From positions 16,560 through 54,893 of the IMG/VR virus record IMGVR_UViG_3300030389_003005: a stretch of 38,334 nucleotides of DNA. The stretch is one strand, 5' to 3'. The first letter of the stretch is position 1; each line of letters opens with the position of its first letter. A model generated the notes under the pieces. It saw only the letters and a program-made list of their open reading frames with translations, had not been told where the DNA came from and did no database searches. Below are positions 6,305-26,353 of this stretch, one piece after another. The translations under genes and the position numbers were made by a program. The stretch is from a virus.

Positions 6305-7000
6305 ATGTCAAGTTATTCAAGTGATTTAAAAATTGAATTGATGGTTACTGGCCAAAATGCCGGTACATGGGGTGACAAAACAAACACGAATTTAAATTTA
6401 GTTCAACAAGCAATTGCAGGTTATGAAGCTATTGATGTAGCATCATCTGATGTGGCACTTGTCATGACTGATGGAACAATTTCCAATGCAAGAAATGCTA
6501 CACTAAAACTTACAGGAACTTTAGCTGCAAATAGAACAGTAACTATTCCAAATAGTATTGAAAAAGTTTACAATGTTGTAGATGGAACTGATCATGCAGG
6601 ATACACTTTAACTTTTAAAACTGCATCTGGAACAGGTGTTCTTTTATGTGAGGGTAATTGCTATGTATTATATGCTGATGGAACAAATGTTGAAAAGGCA
6701 AATGAATACAGAAAATGGAGAACAATTACTGCATCAGAAACTATTCAAGCAGGTGCAAAATTATTTGTAGATACAACAGGTGGAGCTGTAACTGCTACAC
6801 TTCCTGCATCACCAGCAGTTGGTGATGAGGTTCACTTTATAGATTCAAGATTTAACTTTGATAGCAATGCGTTGACTGTAGGAAGAAATAGTTCTAAAAT
6901 TGCTAATGCGTCTTCAGACTTAGTTGTTAATACTGAAGGTGCAGGTTTTGGACTAGTTTACTCTGGCTCAAACGTTGGCTGGACTTATATGGAGAAATAA
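6305..7000 (+). CDS. tail fibre protein
   Basis: A 231-residue protein whose N-terminus (YSSDLKIELMVTGQNAGTWG followed by DKTNTNLNLVQQAI) is a well-known start of marine phage tail-fibre/receptor-binding proteins. It continues with β-rich segments (ATLKLTGTLAANRTVTIP, a FIDSRFNFDSNALTV segment) and ends with GSNVGWTYMEK, a typical fibre shaft/tip ending. TAGGAG lies upstream of the ATG. It follows a promoter-like sequence at 6253 and is paired with the collar protein next to it, so it probably contributes to host recognition. Confidence 0.75.
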   Translation: MSSYSSDLKIELMVTGQNAGTWGDKTNTNLNLVQQAIAGYEAIDVASSDVALVMTDGTISNARNATLKLTGTLAANRTVTIPNSIEKVYNVVDGTDHAGYTLTFKTASGTGVLLCEGNCYVLYADGTNVEKANEYRKWRTITASETIQAGAKLFVDTTGGAVTATLPASPAVGDEVHFIDSRFNFDSNALTVGRNSSKIANASSDLVVNTEGAGFGLVYSGSNVGWTYMEK

Positions 7001-7001
7001 T

Positions 7002-7556
7002 ATGTCAAATTATGAAGCAACTAGATATGATTTTACAGGAGCAAACCTTACAGGTATTGAAGGTATACCAACAGCTACTATTGTGCCGTGGTCATCTTCA
7101 TCTGTACCCTCAGGTTTTTTAGAGTGTGATGGATCAGCAGTATCAAGATCTACTTACTCAGCATTATTTGCAATTATAGGAACAACTTATGGAACTGGAG
7201 ATGGTGCATCCACTTTTAATGTACCTAATCTAGCTGACAACGTTGCTGTAGGAAAATCTAATAATAAAGCTCTAGCATCAACAGGTGGTGCAAACACTGT
7301 GACATCAACTGGAAACGTTGGAGGATCTACTGGAGCTCACACATTAACAACTGGTGAATTACCCTCACATACACACCCACAAGGAAACGCAGGGGGAGGT
7401 GGAGGAAACAGGGATGGTTATGCACCTAACCCAGCTGCTACGGGTTCTTCTGGTAGTGGTAGTTCACACTCACATAACATGAGTGCAACTTTTACAGGAG
7501 ATGCAACATCAGTGTTGCAACCATATTTGACAGTGATATATATTATTAAAACTTAG
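7002..7556 (+). CDS. phage tail-collar domain protein
   Basis: A 184-residue protein with a classical tail-collar domain at about residues 22-85 (IVPWSSSSVPSGFLECDG, then SRSTYSALFAIIGTTYG and GDGASTFNVPNL). The C-terminal half is Gly/Ser/His-rich (ELPSHTHPQG, SSHSHNMS) and ends QPYLTVIYIIKT, the usual end of these proteins; the His-rich loops resemble metal-coordinating fibre tips. The ATG at 7002 is preferred over an upstream in-frame start because GGAG lies about eight bases upstream and it follows the previous stop directly. Likely part of the tail appendage that contacts the host. Confidence 0.85.
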   Translation: MSNYEATRYDFTGANLTGIEGIPTATIVPWSSSSVPSGFLECDGSAVSRSTYSALFAIIGTTYGTGDGASTFNVPNLADNVAVGKSNNKALASTGGANTVTSTGNVGGSTGAHTLTTGELPSHTHPQGNAGGGGGNRDGYAPNPAATGSSGSGSSHSHNMSATFTGDATSVLQPYLTVIYIIKT

Positions 7557-7564
7557 GAGAAATT

Positions 7565-7939
7565 ATGCCAAATAAAAGTAAGTGGACAGTAATATTTGAT
7601 GATAAAAAAATTCTTAATCAAAGTGTAACAAACGAGGATGGATGGGCAACAGCCTACGAAATTGATGATGATGCCTTTTGGAATGATCCTAAATGGCAAG
7701 ATATAAATGCTATTCAATATATTGATGATGATAACGATCACAACGACTGCGTAGAAATGGTTCCAGGCACATTTGGTAGAAACAAAACTTATGCTGAATC
7801 AGGCTTAGGAGATTTTAGAGAACAATTTATTACAAAATGGGATGCAGCTCATCTGGCAAGATTACAACAAGATTGGGATAATGACGATAGAGATGAGTCT
7901 GAAAAAGGTGCAAGACCAACTTCTTACGTATCTCCTTAA
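7565..7939 (+). CDS. acidic protein of unknown function in fibre block
   Basis: A 124-residue, Asp/Trp-rich acidic protein with a good ribosome site (AGGAGAAATT before ATG). It has DDD/DDND runs and no hydrophobic segment. Position directly after fibre genes would suit a fibre-assembly chaperone or a small appendage subunit, but I recognise no family. Its stop overlaps the stop of the convergent oxygenase gene (shared TTAA at 7936-7939), and no terminator separates the two transcripts. Confidence 0.65.
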   Translation: MPNKSKWTVIFDDKKILNQSVTNEDGWATAYEIDDDAFWNDPKWQDINAIQYIDDDNDHNDCVEMVPGTFGRNKTYAESGLGDFREQFITKWDAAHLARLQQDWDNDDRDESEKGARPTSYVSP

Positions 7940-8793
7940 TCAAGATTAATTAAATACTTAAAAGTTAAAACCATTCTTAGATCAGCAAGATCTCTTCGGA
8001 CATCTCTTGCACAATGTTTAATACTTCCATTAAATACTACAACTCTACCTGGTTTGGGTATAACACTTTTTAAAATGTCCTGATTATTTGCATCATAGAA
8101 AACAGTTTCTCCAGCATTATCTAATACCCAATGATTATTTAAATAATACATTAATGTAATTCCACCTGCAGTTTGTTCTGAATAATCAGTGTGAGATTCA
8201 TGAATCGTCCCATATGGATTAGCACTAGCATACACTCTTTCTAATTTTAACAAATCAAACATATGAAGTTCTTTTAATATTGTTTCTGTTTTATTTTTCA
8301 GTAGTTTTTCAATCTTATGATTAAATTTTAAATCATAATTAAATTTTCTCCATTTGTTTAGATTGACACCAGAGCCTAAAAATCCCCACGACACTACATC
8401 TCTAAAGTAAAAATAAATAGAATCTATATCATATTTATCCATATGATTATCAAAGGTTAAAATCATATCATGGTCTAAAGCATTAGCTAACGATATAATT
8501 CTAGTATTTTTATTTTGATATCTATTTTGATTAAATTCAAAAACTAATTGCTCTGCCTCGATACCAATTAAATCTTTAATAACGGATCGCTCAGTTTCAA
8601 TCTTATGTGTGAAAAATTCATTGCCATAAATAGAATGTAATAATCCTGCAAAACAAATATCCTCTTTGCACTTCCATTTTCTTAATTGGTCATACACATT
8701 TATTAAATGTTGAAATAAGGATTTGTTATGATGAGATATTTGCTGAGTTTTTTTTGAAATTAAATAGTTGATAGATTTTACATATTTATTCAT
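7936..8793 (-). CDS. 2OG-Fe(II) oxygenase fused to N-terminal HD-like domain
   Basis: A 285-residue two-domain protein. Residues about 20-115 look like an HD-like module of the DUF6817 kind (FQHLINVYDQLRKW, then CFAGLLHSIYGNEFF, later ALDHD). Residues about 175-285 are a 2-oxoglutarate/Fe(II) oxygenase: His201 and Asp203 in HESHTDYSE, distal His260 in GSIKHCARD, and Arg273 for the 2-oxoglutarate carboxylate. ATG 8793 is chosen over a TTG at 8808 because it overlaps the upstream stop as ATGA. It is the last gene of a four-oxygenase minus-strand operon. It probably hydroxylates a protein or small molecule; the substrate is unknown. Confidence 0.8.
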   Translation of the reverse strand: MNKYVKSINYLISKKTQQISHHNKSLFQHLINVYDQLRKWKCKEDICFAGLLHSIYGNEFFTHKIETERSVIKDLIGIEAEQLVFEFNQNRYQNKNTRIISLANALDHDMILTFDNHMDKYDIDSIYFYFRDVVSWGFLGSGVNLNKWRKFNYDLKFNHKIEKLLKNKTETILKELHMFDLLKLERVYASANPYGTIHESHTDYSEQTAGGITLMYYLNNHWVLDNAGETVFYDANNQDILKSVIPKPGRVVVFNGSIKHCARDVRRDLADLRMVLTFKYLINLD

Positions 8794-9386
8794 CTTAATA
8801 CTAACCAAGATGTTAAAATATATTTTTCACCTTTTAATGGTGGATTGCCTCTGTGTACATAAGGAAACGCTGCAGGCCACATTATAATTCTACCTGATTT
8901 TGGTTCAACTCTTTTTGAAAAATGTAAAAACTCAGTTTCTCCTCCTTCTTCAACATCGTTTAAATATATGGCAAACACTAAAGCTCTTTTTTCATTTTCA
9001 TAACCTTTAGAGTGTTCGATATGCCAAACGTGATAGCCTTCACCTGGTAAAGTTTTTTGTATTTTAATATCTGTGAAGTGAAATGTTTTTTCATCATATG
9101 CCGTGCATATTCCTGTCTTTTTATTATAATAATCAAAAGCAGTTCTTACATTATATATCAAACCTCTACAGGCATCCCACCAAAAATTTAAATTACCAGG
9201 ATTACAAAAAAGCTGTTCATCATTTTTATCGTTTACACTTGATTGTTCAAAATCAAATCTATTTAAGGTTTGATTGAATGTTTTTGATTTTTCAAAGAGA
9301 TCAATCGCTTTATCACACTCTGACTTAGGTAAGTAATTATCAAAAACAGCTATAAAATTATCTATATTATTTATTCTCTTGTCCAT
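8790..9386 (-). CDS. prolyl-4-hydroxylase-like 2OG-Fe(II) oxygenase, HxE variant
   Basis: A 198-residue oxygenase. Visible hallmarks: YHVWHIEHS with His122 and Glu124 as iron ligands (Glu in place of the usual Asp), YLNDVEEGGETEFLHF, RIIMWPAAFPYVHRGNPP with distal His178, and GEKYILTSWL where Lys188 takes the place of the 2-oxoglutarate-binding basic residue. This matches a P4H-like subfamily frequent in marine phages, in which HxE occurs, so activity is plausible. It overlaps the downstream gene (ATGA) and, by 20 bases, the upstream one. Targets could be prolyl or other residues in virion or host proteins. Confidence 0.85.
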   Translation of the reverse strand: MDKRINNIDNFIAVFDNYLPKSECDKAIDLFEKSKTFNQTLNRFDFEQSSVNDKNDEQLFCNPGNLNFWWDACRGLIYNVRTAFDYYNKKTGICTAYDEKTFHFTDIKIQKTLPGEGYHVWHIEHSKGYENEKRALVFAIYLNDVEEGGETEFLHFSKRVEPKSGRIIMWPAAFPYVHRGNPPLKGEKYILTSWLVLR

Positions 9387-9960
9387 TTATATATTCTAAA
9401 TCCTCATCTGAAAATTTTTTAAATTGTTCTTTTGTATACTGATCATTAGCGTGGTGAGTAAAGGGACCATGCTTATCAACATAGTGAATAAAAACTTGTG
9501 CTAGGCCATCACCTGTATATTTGTTTTTTCTCCCATGCTCATCTTCTACACCTAAATATAATAAGGCATCTCCAGTTTCAATCTCAACATCATTACCCTC
9601 TATAACTAAAGGCCAATCATCAGTTTTATAAATACATGCTGTAACAGAAATCTCACAAGCCGGTCTATCTTTATGCATTTCTAGAGAAGATCCAAAACCA
9701 TACCATCTCCAAAAAGTGTAAGTCTCTAAAAGTTCTAAACCAGTTTCTTTTTCTAATAATTCTTTTTTAAGTTTAGACATAGATGACATGAGTTTGTCAT
9801 TGTAAAAAGATAAGGCAAAACATGGTTCTCCCTTATGAGATTTAAAAGCAGCAGGATCTTGTAAAACAATTTTACAATAACTTTGTAATACGTTTAATTC
9901 TTCTTTTGTAAAAAAGTTTTTTACTATTTTGTATCTAAAATTTTTTCTTATGTTAGCCAT
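9367..9960 (-). CDS. 2OG-Fe(II) oxygenase, third of island
   Basis: A 197-residue protein with His96 and Asp98 in SSLEMHKDRPACEISVTACI, a second half with GDALLYLGVEDEHGRKNKY providing distal His142 followed by Arg144, and AQVFIHYVD near the end of the fold. The WRWYGFGSSL lead-in is typical of marine viral oxygenases. Sequence is clearly different from its two downstream neighbours, so the island is not a simple recent tandem duplication. It overlaps both neighbouring oxygenase genes. Substrate unknown. Confidence 0.8.
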   Translation of the reverse strand: MANIRKNFRYKIVKNFFTKEELNVLQSYCKIVLQDPAAFKSHKGEPCFALSFYNDKLMSSMSKLKKELLEKETGLELLETYTFWRWYGFGSSLEMHKDRPACEISVTACIYKTDDWPLVIEGNDVEIETGDALLYLGVEDEHGRKNKYTGDGLAQVFIHYVDKHGPFTHHANDQYTKEQFKKFSDEDLEYINGQENK

Positions 9961-10502
9961 GCTACTATACTATATCGTGTTCCTTTAGTTATTGGTTCTA
10001 TCATATGTGGGTATAAAAAATTAGATGGAAAAAAACAAATACTGCCTTTTTTTAAAGGAACTCGCTTCATTTCTTTGTTTAAGTATTGATAAGCAAAAAC
10101 AAGATCTCCACCTTCATAATCATCGTTTAAATTAATAATTACACTTAACGATCTTGGTGTGCCATGAAATTCATCAGTGTGATAAAGATACTTTCCCCCT
10201 GTATTATATTTTAGTAAATCAATTTGATTTATTTGTGCTGCTTCTAGTCTTGGAAATTTTATCCTGTATGTAGAATAAAAATGAAAAATTTCGTCATATA
10301 TTTTTTTAAAGTATATTTGTTCAGATATTGTTTTTTTTGTTAGAGAGTGTCCAGAAACTTCTCTGTAATCTGTATCGCCAGCTTTTGTTGCTAATGATTT
10401 TTTACAAACGTGATTTATATATTCTACGCATCTTTCACAAAAAATGGGATCAACTATATTGTTATAAACTACTATTGCGTCTTCAATTTTTTCTGTAATC
10501 AT
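9948..10502 (-). CDS. 2OG-Fe(II) oxygenase (P4H-like), first gene of minus operon
   Basis: A 184-residue oxygenase with the cleanest motif set in the island: His108 and Asp110 in KYLYHTDEFHGTPRSLSVII, the strand NLNDDYEGGDLVFA, GSICFFPSNFLYPHMIEP with distal His166, and Arg176 in GTRYSIVAWL. This is the prolyl-4-hydroxylase-like double-stranded β-helix pattern. It is the promoter-proximal gene of the minus-strand operon and lies head to head, 41 bases away, with a fifth oxygenase on the plus strand. Confidence 0.88.
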   Translation of the reverse strand: MITEKIEDAIVVYNNIVDPIFCERCVEYINHVCKKSLATKAGDTDYREVSGHSLTKKTISEQIYFKKIYDEIFHFYSTYRIKFPRLEAAQINQIDLLKYNTGGKYLYHTDEFHGTPRSLSVIINLNDDYEGGDLVFAYQYLNKEMKRVPLKKGSICFFPSNFLYPHMIEPITKGTRYSIVAWLT

Positions 10503-10543
10503 CCGTATACTTCTTATATTATTTACTATATAAAATCAAACAA
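10503..10543. promoter_or_regulatory. divergent promoter region between two oxygenases
   Basis: A 41-base A/T-rich spacer separates the divergent starts. Minus strand: TTGATT (10539-10534) and TATAAG (10518-10513) with a short 15-base spacer, ending 10 bases before the ATG. Plus strand: TATAAA at 10529-10534 with no recognisable -35. Both are weak matches and overlap, so the two directions might compete. Confidence 0.35.
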
Positions 10544-11077
10544 ATGAAATTGGTTTACTGCATTCCGGATAAAATATGGTGGATACATGATTTTTTACCA
10601 ACTGATGTTTACAAGGGTATTCACAACGCAATAATTAAACAAAGAAAAGAAATTAATTTGAAGTCAGCAGAGGGGGCTTGGGATCCTAATTTAATTAGAC
10701 ACTTAAATGCACCTTCTAGAGTAGAAGTAAATCAATATCCACCTTTTGAAATATTGAAAAACAAAGTCAAAGATAATCAATTTTTTAAATTACCTTTTGT
10801 AGAAAAAATGACAACTACGATACATTATATGAAAAATAAATCTGGCATAAATTGGCATAGTGATGTGTCTTGGAAATATGGTGCTACATACTATTTAAAT
10901 CATAGATGGAATATTCATTGGGGCGGTGAATTTATGTTTGCAGATAAGGCAGCACATGGGTTTCTACCGATCACCGGCAACTCATTAGTGATAGTAAAAT
11001 CACCCTTTGATCATAAAGTTAATCCTGTATTAAGTCCCATAATGCCTAGAATATCTGTGCAAATGTTTATGAAGTGA
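10544..11077 (+). CDS. 2OG-Fe(II) oxygenase, plus-strand member of island
   Basis: A 177-residue oxygenase. Iron ligands are His105 and Asp107 in GINWHSDVSWKYGATYYLN and distal His157 in SPFDHKVNPV; Arg169 in PRISVQMF would bind 2-oxoglutarate. The middle IHWGGEFMFAD matches the GG(E/D)xxF strand of the family. It is the only island oxygenase in the same direction as the late virion genes, directly upstream of the nozzle-like gene at 11100. The start has no Shine-Dalgarno-like sequence. Confidence 0.85.
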   Translation: MKLVYCIPDKIWWIHDFLPTDVYKGIHNAIIKQRKEINLKSAEGAWDPNLIRHLNAPSRVEVNQYPPFEILKNKVKDNQFFKLPFVEKMTTTIHYMKNKSGINWHSDVSWKYGATYYLNHRWNIHWGGEFMFADKAAHGFLPITGNSLVIVKSPFDHKVNPVLSPIMPRISVQMFMK

Positions 11078-11099: not shown

Positions 11100-13250
11100 A
11101 TGCCTTTAACAAACGTACTAATAAGACCTGGATTTAACAAACAAGTTACTGACGTAGGAGCAGAGGGTCAGTGGGTTGATGGAGATAATGTTAGATTTAG
11201 ATATGGTCTACCAGAAAAAATTGGCGGTTGGGAACAACTAACAGCCGATAGTCTTGTTGGAGCTGTGCGAGCGCAACACGTTTATGCGGATTTAGATGGC
11301 AATATATACGCTGCTTTAGGCACAACTAGAGCTTTACTAATTTATTATGGTGATAACTTTTATGACATTACACCATTATCGGCAGCCATCACTGGAGCGA
11401 CTTTTACTACTGTTAATACATCACCGACAGTTACAGTGAACAAAGCTTTACACGGATTAGAAATAGGAGACTTATTTACATTTACATCTGTAACTCCTCC
11501 AACAGGTGCTGGATATAGTGCTGCTGATTTTACCACTAATACTTTTCAAGTTGTTACTGTGCCAAATATAGATTCTTTTACAATCACAATGGCATCTAAC
11601 TCTGGCACGAGTGTGTCTGCAAGTGGTGCAGCAACCATTAATCCTTACGAGAAAGTAGGACCATTATCTTCTACAGGAGGATATGGATGGGGCACATCTA
11701 CTTATGGCGGAGCATCTGGTGTCACTAATACTTTAAATGGTTCGTTAAATGATGACACTGCGGGCACAGGAGGATCAGGCACTAGTATTACTTTAACATC
11801 AACAGCTGGATTCCCAACAAGTGGAGTGATTGAAGTGGGTGCTGAGTTTATTTCCTACACAGGGATATCATCAAATGATTTGACTGGCATAACTAGAGAT
11901 GTTGCAGGCACTAGATCAGCTCACTCTTCTGGAGCATCAGTAGAATATTATACAGCTTGGGGTCAAAGATCTCTAACAAGTAATGTAATACTTGATCCTG
12001 CTAGTTGGTCTTTAGATAATTTTGGACAAATACTTATTGCAACTGCAAAAAATGGTAAAACGTTTTCATGGAATCCTATAGCCTCTACATCTGCAGCTTT
12101 AGAAACAAGAGCAACTGCTATAACAAATGCACCTACTAGTTCTGTTCTATCTGTTGTATCTGAAAGAGATAGACATTTAATAATATTAGGTACTGAAACA
12201 ACGATCGGTTCTGTTTTAACACAAGATAAAATGTTCGTTAGATTTTCTGATCAAGAAAATTTAACTGATTACACACCAACTTCTATTAACACTGCTGGCA
12301 CGTTAAGATTAGATTCAGGAACAAAAATAATAGGTGCTGCTAAAGGTAAAGATTATATTTTAATTTTAACAGATACATCTGCTTATATAATGCAGTTTGT
12401 AGGACCACCTTTTACTTTTTCTTTAAGACAAGTAGGATCTAACTGCGGGGCTATAGGTCAAAATAGTATTAAATATATTAATGGTGCTGTTTATTGGATG
12501 GGTCAATCAGGTGGTTTTTTTGTATTTGATGGAACAGTAAAAAGCCTGCCTTGCTTAGTAGAAGATTTTGTATTTACGGATAAGGGAGATAATTTAGGAA
12601 TAGATTATGAAAACGGAGAGTTAGTTAACGCAGGTTTAAATAATCTTTATTCAGAGATAAGTTGGTTTTATCCTAAGAAAGGATCTACTGAACCTGATAG
12701 AGTAGTGACTTATAATTATGATGAAAATACTTGGACGACAGGCACGTTAGCAAGAACCTCTTGGCAAGACGCTACACTATTTGAAGTGCCTTACGCTACT
12801 GAGTATAATACATCGGGTACACCAACGTTTCCTGTAATTCAAGGTGTTACTGATGTTAATGGATCAACACTATACTATGCACATGAAATAGGTAATAACC
12901 AAGTAGATAATTTAGGTAATAAAACAGCTATACCTGCATTCATACAATCTGGATCTTTTGATTTAGATACAGAGGGAAATGGTCAATTTTTTATGTCCAT
13001 GAGAAGATTTGTGCCAGACTTTAAATTAATATCAGGCAACGCTAAAATCACAATAAATCTAAAAGACTTTCCAACGGACACCGCAACATCATCTCCGTTA
13101 GGGCCTTTTACAATTACTAGTTCGACTGATAAAGTAGATACTAGAGCGAGAACAAGATTTGCAAGTTTAAAAGTAGAGAACACTTCAACTGATGAAAGTT
13201 GGAGATATGGAACGTTTAGAGCGGACATACAACCAGATGGACAAAGATAA
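11100..13250 (+). CDS. tail nozzle / stabilisation protein (gp10 / gp12-like)
   Basis: A 716-residue late structural protein. The N-terminus (LIRPGFNKQVTDVGAEGQWV, then DGDNVRFRYGLPEKIGGWEQL) is the hallmark of the podoviral tail nozzle family (P22 gp10 / T7 gp12-like), which forms the distal tube through which DNA exits. Repeated β-segments with SGGFFVFDGTVKSLP and VVTYNYDENTWTTGTL look like propeller blades. An inserted β-domain at about residues 100-165 (HGLEIGDLFTF) and a Gly-rich segment (GGYGWGTSTYGG) are present. The gene is followed by closely coupled small virion genes. Confidence 0.75.
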   Translation: MPLTNVLIRPGFNKQVTDVGAEGQWVDGDNVRFRYGLPEKIGGWEQLTADSLVGAVRAQHVYADLDGNIYAALGTTRALLIYYGDNFYDITPLSAAITGATFTTVNTSPTVTVNKALHGLEIGDLFTFTSVTPPTGAGYSAADFTTNTFQVVTVPNIDSFTITMASNSGTSVSASGAATINPYEKVGPLSSTGGYGWGTSTYGGASGVTNTLNGSLNDDTAGTGGSGTSITLTSTAGFPTSGVIEVGAEFISYTGISSNDLTGITRDVAGTRSAHSSGASVEYYTAWGQRSLTSNVILDPASWSLDNFGQILIATAKNGKTFSWNPIASTSAALETRATAITNAPTSSVLSVVSERDRHLIILGTETTIGSVLTQDKMFVRFSDQENLTDYTPTSINTAGTLRLDSGTKIIGAAKGKDYILILTDTSAYIMQFVGPPFTFSLRQVGSNCGAIGQNSIKYINGAVYWMGQSGGFFVFDGTVKSLPCLVEDFVFTDKGDNLGIDYENGELVNAGLNNLYSEISWFYPKKGSTEPDRVVTYNYDENTWTTGTLARTSWQDATLFEVPYATEYNTSGTPTFPVIQGVTDVNGSTLYYAHEIGNNQVDNLGNKTAIPAFIQSGSFDLDTEGNGQFFMSMRRFVPDFKLISGNAKITINLKDFPTDTATSSPLGPFTITSSTDKVDTRARTRFASLKVENTSTDESWRYGTFRADIQPDGQR

Positions 13251-14399: not shown

Positions 14400-14600
14400 A
14401 TGAGTGAAGACTTACCAAGAATACCAGCAGAAGCTAAGGAAGTCATCAAGCACAAAAAGACAGGACAGGTTTACGAATCTAAGGCTGCTTTTGATGCAGA
14501 TGTAGCAGATCCAAATACTGATACAACTGCTGATGATTTCTCACAACACGTAGAGATTACTGTTGCAAAACTTACTCTGTTTGGTAGCACTAAAAAATAA
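14400..14600 (+). CDS. 66-aa conserved small protein
   Basis: A 66-residue protein with AAGGA nine bases upstream of ATG 14400. It has a recognisable short motif, KHKKTGQVYESKAAFDADVADPNTDTTADDFSQHVEITVAKLTLFG, in which a β-hairpin (HKKTGQVYES) precedes an acidic linker and a closing strand (ITVAKLTLFG). The motif recurs in small marine phage proteins of unknown role. Its stop overlaps the ATG of the glycosyltransferase (TAATG), so the two are probably co-translated. Confidence 0.7.
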   Translation: MSEDLPRIPAEAKEVIKHKKTGQVYESKAAFDADVADPNTDTTADDFSQHVEITVAKLTLFGSTKK

Positions 14601-15541
14601 TGCAACCACGAGGCGGAACTGAATTACAACTAGAGATGTTGTATAAGAATTGTGATAATTCTTTACTAGATCAAGTGCAGATATGCACATCGATACCAGG
14701 TAAAATACCTTTGCATCCAGATAAGTTAAATATACTTTGGCAAAAAAATTCTTACGATCAACCAAATTTGTTTGATTTTTTTAACAATCCAAAAAAACAT
14801 GCAGAATATGATTGGTATGTTTTTAATTCACATTGGAATTATGAAAAGTTTAGGCATTATTTTAGAATACCTACTGAGAGAAGCATGGTAATTAAAAATG
14901 GATGTTATCATTTTCCGCAAAGAAAAATTTATAAAAAAGGTGATCCAATAAAGTTATTATATCATTCTACACCATGGAGAGGATTGAGCGTGCTTTTAGG
15001 TGCGATGCAGTATGTTAAAACACCTAACGTCACATTAGATGTTTATTCAAGCACTAAAATATATGGTGAAGAGTTTCATAAGGAAAATGAACATTTATAT
15101 AAACCACTTTTTGACCAGGCAGAATATTTAAAAAACGTTAATTATATTGGCTACAAACCTCATGAATATATATTAGAACGAATAACAGATTATCAAATGT
15201 GGACACATCCTAGTGTTTTTGAAGAAACGTTTGGTATCGGTGCTTTAGAAGCAATGAGCTCAGGGTTATATTTAATTACGACTAATTTTGGTGCCTTGTT
15301 TGAAACTTGCTCTGAGTGGCCTATCTATGTTAATTATACAAATAATTTACAAGCTCTTGCAGAGAGATTTGCTCACGCTATAGATATGGCATGTGCCAGT
15401 CTTCATGAAGATTATGTGCAACAACATATTGAAGAGCAACAAAAGTTTGCTAAAAGATTTTATTCTTGGGATAAAAAAGGAAAAGAGTGGGAGACATTTT
15501 TGAAAGGAGCTCTAGATGAACGACAATCCACAAGGCTATGA
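14600..15541 (+). CDS. glycosyltransferase, GT-B fold (GT4-like)
   Basis: A 313-residue glycosyltransferase. It opens with the Gly loop of the N-terminal domain (PRGGTELQLEML). The donor-binding domain shows LLYHSTPWRGLSVLLGAMQY and the diagnostic HPSVFEETFGIGALEAMSSG followed by ITTNFGALFET, which positions the E-x7-E motif that binds the nucleotide-sugar. The first β-strand is short, but phage homologues as I know them also start here. It overlaps the next glycosyltransferase by 26 bases. It may glycosylate virion proteins, hydroxylated residues made by the oxygenases, or host surface glycans; the acceptor is unknown. Confidence 0.85.
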   Translation: MQPRGGTELQLEMLYKNCDNSLLDQVQICTSIPGKIPLHPDKLNILWQKNSYDQPNLFDFFNNPKKHAEYDWYVFNSHWNYEKFRHYFRIPTERSMVIKNGCYHFPQRKIYKKGDPIKLLYHSTPWRGLSVLLGAMQYVKTPNVTLDVYSSTKIYGEEFHKENEHLYKPLFDQAEYLKNVNYIGYKPHEYILERITDYQMWTHPSVFEETFGIGALEAMSSGLYLITTNFGALFETCSEWPIYVNYTNNLQALAERFAHAIDMACASLHEDYVQQHIEEQQKFAKRFYSWDKKGKEWETFLKGALDERQSTRL

Positions 15542-16412
15542 CCATGATGAGGTAAGAAAGCCAATTTGGAAAAATAAACCAAGTGAAGAACATAAAATAT
15601 ATGCTAACGAAGATACGTATCAAACTATTAAAGAGATTAATAATAAAACAGAAGATAAAGGCGACATACATTTATTTATAGGAACACCCTGTCACTCAGA
15701 AGTTTCCATGCACTATGTAAATGCTATAATTAGTTTAACTAAAGCCTGTCATAAAAGAAATATACCTATTGAGTTCTCATTAATTAAATCATCGTTAGTC
15801 ACGCAGGGACGTAATTTATGTGTATCTGCTTTTCTTGATTCACCAGCTACTCATTTAATGTTTATTGATTCTGATATATTTTTATATCCTACAACCATAT
15901 TTAAAATGATTAAGGCTGACAAAGATGTGATCTCTGTGCCATATCCATTAAAAGCTTTTTTATGGGATAAATCTTTAACACAAGTCAAGGATGGTAGTGT
16001 AAAGACTGCAGAACAATTAGCTCAAGCTGGCAATACTTATCCAATGAGAGTGCCAGACAAAAAAGATATACAACTAAACAATGGGGTTATAGAGGTAACT
16101 CATAGTCCAACAGGAGCGATGTTAATTAAAAGATCTGTGTTTGAAAAGATGATTAAAGCATACCCACAAAAAGAGATAAAGCAAAGCACAGTGATAAATA
16201 GTAAATTAGTTTTAAAAAAGAATATGTGGAACTTTTTTGATACTATTCATGACCCTATAGATAAGACTTATTTGGGTGAGGATTTTGGCTTTTGTAGGCT
16301 TTGGAAAGACATAGGCGGTAAATGTCATGCCTATATATTAGATGAAATAACCCATGTTGGCGAACATCAGTATACAGGTAAATTTGCTGATGAGTTGATC
16401 ACAATCAAGTAA
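15516..16412 (+). CDS. glycosyltransferase, GT-A fold (GT2-like)
   Basis: A 298-residue protein with AGGAG seven bases before ATG 15516. After an acidic 50-residue lead, the GT-A core appears: HLFIGTPCHSEVSMHYVNAI, VTQGRNLCVSAFLDS and the metal-binding DSD at residues 118-120 in HLMFIDSDIFLYPTTIF. A later GEDFGFCRLWKDIGGKCHAYI segment matches the catalytic-base/acceptor region (ED) of GT2 enzymes. It overlaps the GT-B gene, so both are made together and may act in sequence on one acceptor. Confidence 0.82.
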   Translation: MNDNPQGYDHDEVRKPIWKNKPSEEHKIYANEDTYQTIKEINNKTEDKGDIHLFIGTPCHSEVSMHYVNAIISLTKACHKRNIPIEFSLIKSSLVTQGRNLCVSAFLDSPATHLMFIDSDIFLYPTTIFKMIKADKDVISVPYPLKAFLWDKSLTQVKDGSVKTAEQLAQAGNTYPMRVPDKKDIQLNNGVIEVTHSPTGAMLIKRSVFEKMIKAYPQKEIKQSTVINSKLVLKKNMWNFFDTIHDPIDKTYLGEDFGFCRLWKDIGGKCHAYILDEITHVGEHQYTGKFADELITIK

Positions 16413-24275: not shown

Positions 24276-24946
24276 AACTAGTCATAAATAAAAAATATCC
24301 GTACAAACATTATAATAGATTTTCTGATACTACAGGCAGAAAATATCTAGTGGATAATGTAAAAGTTCCTAGCGTTACTGCCATTTTAAGTGCAACTAAA
24401 GATATGCGCCAACTTAATAACTGGCGTAGAAGAGTAGGAGAAAAAGAGGCAGATCGCATTATGAACCAAGCCTCAACGATTGGAACTGAAATGCATCAAG
24501 TATTAGAATATTATTTAAGTGGTGGTGGTTATTACAATGATATGGAAGAAGGCGCAAAACCAAGAATGATGGCAAAAACCATTTTGGACAATATTAAAAT
24601 AGATGAAGTTTGGGGCAATGAAATAAGTCTTGAATATCAAAATAAATTTGCTGGAACTTGTGATATGACAGCCGTAGTCTATGGTAAGCCTAGTATAGTT
24701 GATTGGAAGCAAGCAAATAGGCCAAAAAAGGAAGAATGGGTAGATGACTATAAACATCAGTTGGGTGCCTATTATTTAGCCCATACTGCCAATTACGGGC
24801 CCATAGAGCAGGGTGTAGTTAGTATTTGTACCCGAGACCTCAGATATCAAGAATTTCGTCTCTCAGAGGCTGATTTGAAGGAATACGCAGATAAATTTTT
24901 AAATAGGTTAGAGCAATTTAATAAGCTACAACAACCAGTCTCTTAA
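24272..24946 (+). CDS. PD-(D/E)XK exonuclease, RecB/Cas4 type
   Basis: A 224-residue nuclease starting at GTG 24272 (GTGA overlap). All motifs of the RecB/Cas4-like group are visible: GTEMHQ (71-76, the GxxxH helix), Asp131 in AGTCDMTAV, Asp144 and Lys146 in SIVDWKQANR, and the QxxxY signature Gln163 to Tyr167 in HQLGAYYLA. It would degrade host DNA to recycle nucleotides or process phage ends for recombination. It opens the replication module; its 3' end overlaps the convergent helicase gene by 21 bases. Confidence 0.87.
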   Translation: MKLVINKKYPYKHYNRFSDTTGRKYLVDNVKVPSVTAILSATKDMRQLNNWRRRVGEKEADRIMNQASTIGTEMHQVLEYYLSGGGYYNDMEEGAKPRMMAKTILDNIKIDEVWGNEISLEYQNKFAGTCDMTAVVYGKPSIVDWKQANRPKKEEWVDDYKHQLGAYYLAHTANYGPIEQGVVSICTRDLRYQEFRLSEADLKEYADKFLNRLEQFNKLQQPVS

Positions 24947-26353
24947 ATCTTCTTCACCTAATGTTTTGGCAGCTAAATGACCTTTTGTTACCAAAGATTT
25001 CATAATAGCCTCATCAAGGGTGTCTTTTGCAACTATATCAATATATGTTACGGAATTTTTCTGTCCCATTCTGTGAGCTCTATCCTCAGATTGTTTTCTT
25101 ACCTCAAGATTATAATTATTAGAAAAATAAATTACATTAGTACAAGCAGTGAGTGTCAAACCGAAACCGCCTGTTGTGGGGTTTCCTACTAAAAATCTTG
25201 TCTTAGGATCTGTTTGAATACGCTCTACAGCTCTCTTTCTTTCTTCTACATTCACTTCTCCATAGATAGATACGACAGAATCTTTGCCATATTTTTTGCT
25301 TATAAAATCTATGATTTCTTTAATGTTGTAGATATAATTAGCCCAAATAATACATTTACCATCAGCTTCCTCTAAAATATCATTCAAAGCAGTTATTTTT
25401 TGTGAGTGTAATGTTAATATCTCCCCTTCATCACTTTTTGTAAAACCATTACAAACCTGGTGTAGTTTAATAATTTCTGTTAATTTATTAGAAAATGATA
25501 TAGTGCTATCTTCAACTATCGCTAATGCAGAGATTCGTAGGCGATCATATATTTTTTTGCTCTCACCTTCGAGTTCAATGTATCTTTTCTGACGAATCTT
25601 TGGCTTCAAGTCTAAACATTGGTCTTTTCGTATTCTAGTAGAAAATTGTTGTAATTTAGATTCTAACTCATCTAATCTTTTATAGTATTTAGGAACACTT
25701 ATGTATCTTCCTGAACCTACAGGTATGTCAGACATCTCTGCATATCTATTTCTAAAAGCCAGATAACTTGTAAAGCCTAAAAGTTGTGGACTTAAAAATT
25801 GACATTGTGTATACAAATCCAATGGAGATTTTGTTATTGGCGATCCTGTTAGGATACGCCTTATATTTGACAATGATCGTAATCCTAAAATGTTTTTTGT
25901 TCTTTTTGCTGATCGGTTTTTTATTGTGGTTGATTCATCCAGTGCTACAAAATTTCTGGTATTGGTAATTAAATAATCTTTACAAGCATTAAAACCTCTT
26001 AAAGTTGACAAGGCTTCTACGTTTATTAGAAAGATTCTAAGGTACTCAAATTTATTAAGAGAATCGTACTCTTTTGGTTTACTTATATTCCATTTATAAA
26101 TTTTATATTGTATTTCTTTAGGTAAATGTGTTTTAATTTCTGATTCCCAAACAGTATAAACAGATTTAGGAGCTATAACTAATACAGATTGTATATTTTT
26201 TTTTAAATAAAGATAAGCTAAATTATCAATAGTGACTTTTGTTTTACCAGTTCCCATCTCCATAAAGTATGCCCATTGTGTTTTTTCAGCAGAATCATTT
26301 AAAGCATTTCTTTGATGTTCGTAGGGTTTAGTTTTGTACGGATATTTCCACAT
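24926..26353 (-). CDS. SNF2-like DEAD/H-box helicase, minus strand
   Basis: A 475-residue superfamily 2 helicase. Motif I is MEMGTGKTK (Lys37), motif II is LDES (139-141, the SNF2/DES-type variant of DEAH) followed by TTIKN, motif III LTGSPI (168-173), and the C-terminal half contains GFGLTLTACTNVIYFSNNYN and SEDRAHRMGQK with the motif VI arginines. This is the compact SNF2 type found in many marine phages, probably remodelling or translocating on DNA during replication. It is transcribed against its neighbours, converging on the exonuclease and diverging from the gene at 26423. Confidence 0.9.
   Translation of the reverse strand: MWKYPYKTKPYEHQRNALNDSAEKTQWAYFMEMGTGKTKVTIDNLAYLYLKKNIQSVLVIAPKSVYTVWESEIKTHLPKEIQYKIYKWNISKPKEYDSLNKFEYLRIFLINVEALSTLRGFNACKDYLITNTRNFVALDESTTIKNRSAKRTKNILGLRSLSNIRRILTGSPITKSPLDLYTQCQFLSPQLLGFTSYLAFRNRYAEMSDIPVGSGRYISVPKYYKRLDELESKLQQFSTRIRKDQCLDLKPKIRQKRYIELEGESKKIYDRLRISALAIVEDSTISFSNKLTEIIKLHQVCNGFTKSDEGEILTLHSQKITALNDILEEADGKCIIWANYIYNIKEIIDFISKKYGKDSVVSIYGEVNVEERKRAVERIQTDPKTRFLVGNPTTGGFGLTLTACTNVIYFSNNYNLEVRKQSEDRAHRMGQKNSVTYIDIVAKDTLDEAIMKSLVTKGHLAAKTLGEEDLRDWLL

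Follow-up and report, generated by a model that had tools for sequence, protein, structure and literature searches.

A hot spot for 2-oxoglutarate-Fe(II) oxygenase genes among the tail genes of HTVC023P-type pelagiphages

The oxygenase island and its setting

Pelagiphages infect SAR11, the commonest bacterium of the ocean. The stretch of DNA analysed here, which we call the window, comprises 38,334 bases (positions 16560-54893 of the 54,893-base virus record IMGVR_UViG_3300030389_003005), and its closest relatives in DNA and protein similarity are the pelagiphages HTVC023P and HTVC027P, by which the source phage is classed as an HTVC023P-type pelagiphage. Positions 7936-11077 of the window are filled by five intact open reading frames for enzymes of the 2-oxoglutarate (2OG)-Fe(II) oxygenase type, named ox1 to ox5 in window order, and this island is one filling of a hot spot for such genes among the tail genes of these phages. 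The five reading frames, of which the four minus-strand ones and the single plus-strand one diverge from a 41-base spacer, had already been described in a sequence-only reading of the window, and all of these elements are confirmed:

ox1, 7936-8808, minus strand: 290 amino acids, with a TTG start or an in-frame ATG at 8793; last gene of the minus-strand operon
ox2, 8790-9386, minus strand: 198 amino acids; 2OG oxygenase resembling prolyl 4-hydroxylases, its triad being of the HxE form
ox3, 9367-9960, minus strand: 197 amino acids; catalogued as "ferrochelatase" (phrog_2954) but with the predicted fold of a 2OG-Fe(II) oxygenase; paired with ox4
ox4, 9948-10502, minus strand: 184 amino acids; prolyl-hydroxylase-like 2OG oxygenase heading the minus-strand operon
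spacer, 10503-10543: 41 AT-rich bases separating the divergent starts of ox4 and ox5
ox5, 10544-11077, plus strand: 177 amino acids; 2OG oxygenase gene ending 22 bases upstream of the nozzle gene

Transcription of the minus-strand genes runs ox4, ox3, ox2, ox1, successive genes sharing 13, 20 and 19 bases, while ox5 probably belongs to the late operon. The G+C content of the island is 27-32%, against 36-41% in the surrounding tail genes, and promoter-like sites in the spacer region are not above chance (19 found versus 24 in shuffles).

Enzyme class, iron triads and selection

Membership of the 2OG oxygenase superfamily, taken as a profile match or a double-stranded beta-helix fold, is given by the Pfam family PF13640 for four of the five genes, all above the cut-off (ox1, 1.5e-8; ox2, 1.8e-11; ox4, 1.6e-15; ox5, 1.3e-7), and by the modelled fold for ox3, which has no Pfam match. 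All four places matched by PF13640 in the 54.9-kb record fall inside the island. The HxD/E...H iron triad is found in all five families, its conservation being judged over 3 to 93 distinct relatives per family: H206-x-D208..H265..R278 in ox1 (few sequences), H122-x-E124..H178..K188 in ox2 (invariant in 56 sequences), H96-x-D98..H142 in ox3 (invariant, together with R144, in 93 distinct sequences), H108-x-D110..H166..R176 in ox4 (invariant or nearly so in 85), and H105-x-D107..H157..R169 in ox5 (invariant in 34). The sequence-only reading had assigned such a triad to every gene and an Arg or Lys for 2-oxoglutarate to most of them. The triads are borne out as invariant or nearly so, and the Arg/Lys is present at the usual place, about 9-13 residues past the last histidine, in ox1, ox2, ox4 and ox5, with ox3 as the exception. 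Compared with relatives of 50-84% identity, the genes show nonsynonymous divergence (dN) of 0.10-0.48 and synonymous divergence (dS) of at least 0.84, with dN/dS of about 0.1-0.4. The five genes are thus under purifying selection, and it is near certain that all of them belong to the 2OG-Fe(II) oxygenase class.

The same reading held that the five genes share little sequence with one another, which stands for most pairs, whose kinship is undetectable or weak in profile comparison, but not for ox2 and ox4, which are clear relatives (34% identity over 79 amino acids; 99.4% in profile comparison). Since the ox3 profile has no significant match to ox4 or ox5, its kinship with them rests on the fold. 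Against solved structures, the closest relatives by profile are prolyl hydroxylases and similar enzymes for both ox4 (P3H1 at 1e-9, PKHD enzymes, and PHD2 at 5e-9) and ox2 (prolyl 4-hydroxylases, with a bacterial P4H at 2e-10), and prolyl hydroxylases are matched weakly by ox5 (0.02). Enzymes of the P3H, PKHD, PHD and P4H types are mostly known as protein hydroxylases.

The hot spot upstream of the nozzle gene

The island lies between tail genes, all of them on the plus strand:

6975-7556, plus strand: tail collar-domain protein (PF07484, 4.6e-22), a candidate substrate
7565-7939, plus strand: orf124, a small protein after the collar gene, which together with it defines the tail type
11100-13250, plus strand: nozzle-like virion structural protein (phrog_3287, 5e-87), the downstream border of the hot spot

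Across 18 related records, 39 of the 48 PF13640 matches sit in the 5 kb that precede the nozzle gene, a region that makes up 11% of the bases. The binomial figure for this concentration, 1e-28, overstates it because the hits are treated as independent, although the effect is still plain. Each of 57 intact intervals from the tail or collar genes to the nozzle gene carries between one and six genes of the ox families, and in most relatives either ox4-ox3 or ox5 lies on the plus strand immediately upstream of the nozzle gene; ox5 occupies this place in 28 loci, in 19 of them with the same gap of 22 bases. Gene content at the hot spot is otherwise highly variable, with a recurring core of four genes (ox4, ox3, ox2 and ox5) and a swappable fifth. 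In the list of intact intervals, this very combination of five is present only in the window and in locus L005, a contig 98-99% identical to it, which rules out a conserved five-gene operon.

The proposal that the five genes form one dedicated system is therefore not upheld as stated, since the set is not fixed. Its other half, that they are not isolated random acquisitions, holds: 2OG genes are kept at the same tail site, ox4 and ox3 are inherited together, and in this phage group the genes are neither scattered singly at random places nor broken in their triads.

Past the nozzle gene, positions 14600-16412 of the window hold a glycosyltransferase gene (PF00534, 5e-12) and an Anp1-like gene, and a glycosyltransferase is likewise there in HTVC023P and HTVC027P. 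The sole other long minus-strand gene in the window encodes an SNF2-type helicase (24926-26353).

The ox3 family and its ferrochelatase label

As in other HTVC023P-type genomes, in which 2OG genes lie beside a "ferrochelatase" family, ox3 is flanked here by ox4 and ox2. It falls in PHROGs 2954 and 3531, each of which is named ferrochelatase. However, the Pfam ferrochelatase profile finds no match at E values up to 1 in any of 54 ox3 members, and the predicted fold is not that of a chelatase; on these grounds a ferrochelatase identity is rejected. The structure prediction, made from 54 aligned sequences, is confident (predicted local distance difference test, pLDDT, of 96.1), and a Foldseek search with the model retrieved 494 chains at E of 0.001 or less, the best 50 of which are 2OG-Fe(II) oxygenases and their relatives, including PiuC, PHD2, P4H, ABH8 and SnoN. 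A second structure aligner placed 2OG oxygenases at Z scores of 15-16.7, the highest being 3bvc (16.7 over 153 residues). By sequence profile, ox3 gave only chance matches to proteins in the PDB (thymidylate synthases, E above 0.3), and a single one of the 54 members matches the AlkB family PF13532, at 0.078 only. Besides the triad, R85 and R144 are invariant or nearly so. Since a confident model of a 2OG oxygenase coincides with an invariant HxD...H motif, the name given to this family in recent pelagiphage papers appears mistaken, and ox3 is better described as a putative 2OG-Fe(II) oxygenase.

Two records fetched with this family deserve a comment. A one-peptide-pattern scan of bacterial genomes, which does not imply absence from bacteria, gave a single ox3 match (L191, NZMJ01000157.1), filed under Maricaulis; it carries ox4, ox3 and a phage nozzle gene, that is, a pelagiphage contig binned with a bacterium. 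The 83,261-base record G005, which lies behind locus L157, has two ox3 genes and two nozzle genes, the latter 68% and 73% identical to that of the window, and is either two joined phages or a chimera.

The ox4-ox3 pair

The same-strand upstream neighbour of ox3 is ox4 in 75 of 89 cases away from contig edges, and directly so in 69 of 75 such cases in a second locus set, fetched with the ox3 profile and having few records in common with the first. The pair is found on either strand and its overlap is nearly always 13 bases; in the window, the start codon of ox3 lies across the codon for an invariant Trp residue close to the ox4 C-terminus. The distance matrices of the two families agree with each other (r 0.87), in contrast to their agreement with the nozzle gene (r 0.23 and 0.07; partial Mantel test, 0/999). 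Thus, ox4 and ox3 are co-inherited as a unit.

The pairing extends to cyanophages. A 2OG gene lies directly upstream of an ox3 relative in S-RIM50 and ACG-2014g, where it is matched by the ox4 profile, and in S-SSM5 and P-RSM4 according to annotation, whereas in ACG-2014f the two are fused into one protein of 362 amino acids with the ox3 part first. Neighbour order, overlap, matching distances, cyanophage adjacency and fusion are together evidence for a functional, perhaps physical, pair.

ox2 and the tail type

The gene ox2 is present in 34 of 39 intervals with the collar gene and orf124, versus 2 of 41 others. On the tree of nozzle proteins, the tail type has switched at least nine times; of eight independent pairs, about seven show ox2 changing in the same direction and none in the opposite one (median p 0.016), whereas ox3 and ox5 do not follow the switches in the same test.

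This association bears on the view that the island consists of auxiliary metabolic genes, whose enzymes would act on small molecules of the SAR11 host or on its balance of 2-oxoglutarate and iron, as has been put forward for cyanophages and pelagiphages. Cyanophage 2OG enzymes have been proposed to tune 2OG levels and nitrogen signalling (PMC3037559), host genes for iron transport and central metabolism go up during HTVC027P infection (PMC12753301, whose main text mentions gp73 but gives it no temporal class), and the very variable gene content of the hot spot would suit such a role. Nevertheless, we consider it unlikely, since the genes are placed in relation to tail genes rather than metabolic ones, ox2 tracks the tail type, the nearest solved relatives act on proteins, and the heme link falls away with the 2OG-oxygenase fold of the supposed ferrochelatase.

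ox1 and other exchangeable genes

The exchangeable part of the hot spot is represented in the window by ox1, whose N-terminus is a DUF6817 domain (amino acids 16-92; PF20680, 1.5e-20) fused to a 2OG domain at about amino acids 150-290. In the cyanophages S-RIM50 and ACG-2014g, DUF6817 is a separate gene adjoining a 2OG gene. The structure model of ox1, built on a seven-row alignment, has a pLDDT of 56 and supports no claim. The fusion is an exchangeable accessory cassette, one of many: further contents of the hot spot in relatives are PF13759, DUF6445, JmjC-like cupin, DUF6065, NodU-type carbamoyltransferase and TylF-type methyltransferase genes. The carbamoyltransferase, methyltransferase, cupins and DUF6065 genes are found at L154 3846-5279, L159 4991-5632, L082 57-551 and L163 5959-6762.

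Such genes could alternatively mean that the oxygenases take part in the tailoring of glycans or lipids on the surface of the host or the virion, altering receptors or blocking superinfection in concert with glycosyltransferases, carbamoyltransferase and a sugar-type methyltransferase. The hot spot of relatives takes up NodU-type carbamoyltransferase, TylF-type methyltransferase, JmjC-like cupin and glycosyltransferase genes, glycosyltransferase genes lie downstream of the nozzle gene here, and a carbamoyltransferase adjoins the cyanophage islands; these partners are, however, absent from the island of the window and from most relatives, and ox2 and ox4 resemble protein hydroxylases. This kind of tailoring therefore also seems improbable.

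The label of ox1 raises a different question. Its match to phrog_274, named for T4 endonuclease V, covers the 2OG domain, and the profile matches of the protein are limited to DUF6817, 2OG and, weakly, HD, which speaks against that enzyme. PHROGs phrog_274, phrog_2297 and phrog_19810 are all named DNA endonuclease (V), and the proteins matching them here do so through the 2OG-oxygenase domain, so that "denV" annotations of this kind in cyanophages appear mistaken. A role in nucleic-acid modification, repair or counter-defence, through AlkB- or TET-like chemistry, was proposed earlier for 2OG genes adjoining repair genes in Syn9 (PMC2984593), and is in line with these endonuclease names and with three cyanophages in which ox3 stands alone beside a DNA methylase gene and clamp-loader genes. 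We regard it as very unlikely for the island, as none of the five proteins matches AlkB- or TET/JBP-type Pfam families, the endonuclease V match of ox1 falls on its 2OG domain, and the genes are located among tail genes.

Proposed function

Considering the prolyl-hydroxylase-like profiles, the tail site and the link between ox2 and the tail type, we tentatively prefer a model in which peptidyl-hydroxylase-like enzymes tailor the tail or receptor-binding proteins of the phage. Late in infection, residues in tail-tip proteins of the phage itself would be hydroxylated by these enzymes with Fe(II), O2 and 2-oxoglutarate; ox4 and ox3 would be made together from their overlapping genes and probably act together, ox2 would act on the collar/orf124 type of tail, and the benefit may be in tail stability or receptor range. 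Virion proteins were among the targets suggested by the sequence-only reading, and they are plausible ones, with the behaviour of ox2 as one independent support; the substrate itself would still be deduced from context. Our literature search found no papers on hydroxyproline in phage tail fibres. A more specific version, which we hold to be rather doubtful, is an adhesin-tailoring module comprising a two-subunit ox4-ox3 enzyme, one subunit of which would have a non-canonical co-substrate site and would long have passed for a ferrochelatase, plus swappable hydroxylases matched to the type of tail tip.

Several observations weigh against tail-protein hydroxylation. The absence of an Arg/Lys at the usual 2OG-binding place sets ox3 apart, and ox3 or its fusion is found among replication and nucleotide genes in ACG-2014f, P-SSM7, S-CAM22 and S-P4: a lone ox3 lies between a DNA methylase gene and the clamp-loader gene gp62 in the last three (loci L274, L275 and L278), and the fused ox3-ox4 gene of ACG-2014f is not far from ribonucleotide reductase genes. 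In the window, four of the five genes run antisense to the late genes, an orientation that gives no reason to expect them to be expressed late, and a substrate cannot be read off from nearness in sequence to prolyl hydroxylases. Finally, and as its main caveat, the link between ox2 and the tail may reflect a neighbour hitch-hiking in one recombination event, against which stand five loci (L041, L042, L192, L204 and L247) where ox2 is kept on the opposite strand, two or more genes from orf124.

Relation to known systems and significance

The cyanophage S-SCSM1 holds 24 2OG genes (PMC9602691). For HTVC023P-type pelagiphages, in which clusters of such genes were reported in 2022, the accessible text of Wittmers et al. 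2022 (PMC9599517) describes eight non-orthologous 2OG genes near one another, and one or two "ferrochelatases" each adjoining a 2OG gene. The 2OG genes there are nearby and not adjacent, whereas the five of the window are contiguous; the partner is taken as a true ferrochelatase, whereas here it has a 2OG-oxygenase fold; and that text names no fixed unit or link to the tail, whereas pairing, site and tail-type link are measured here. Among the closest relatives, HTVC027P carries ox2 within a minus-strand island of three genes (gp72-gp74) at the corresponding place, with no ox3 found, and in HTVC023P, 2OG genes and ox3 (gp65-gp67 and gp71) lie beside the tail genes, but on the plus strand. Neither ox5 nor the DUF6817 fusion was seen in these two phages.

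In T4-like cyanophages (S-RIM50, ACG-2014g, S-SM1, Syn9 and S-SSM5), distinct 2OG genes likewise stand in rows that include ox3; a 2OG gene is often directly upstream of it, and some of these rows lie by tail fibres. Islands of the same families adjoin tail fibre genes in S-RIM50, ACG-2014g and S-CAM1. These phages differ in belonging to another family and infecting another host, in that other positions are common, and in having DUF6817 as a separate gene. In S-CAM1 (L188, 2522-5300), a gene annotated as a tail assembly chaperone is flanked by two 2OG genes immediately behind a short tail fibre gene. Among cellular enzymes, bacterial P4H, PHD2/EGLN1, P3H1 and PiuC-type PKHD proteins share the fold and the triad, provide the best matches of ox2 and ox4, and have the fold of ox3; contrary to the protein prolyl hydroxylases, ox2 has an HxE motif and ox3 is without the canonical 2OG-binding Arg. 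As far as the literature consulted shows, the new elements are the changed identity of ox3, its pairing with ox4 as measured here, the location of the genes, the link of ox2 to the tail type and the fusion of DUF6817 to a 2OG domain.

Pelagiphage 2OG and "ferrochelatase" genes have been used to argue for manipulation of host iron and heme and for seasonality (PMC9599517 and PMC11561400), the latter source being a 2024 time series built on PHROGs 61 and 2954. These arguments need rereading if a paired 2OG oxygenase stands behind the "ferrochelatase" label, and the function of 2OG genes in marine phages then becomes the specific question of hydroxylated tail proteins in virions of phages that can now be cultured. 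Should the adhesin-tailoring module prove true, there would be marine phages with post-translationally modified receptor-binding proteins.

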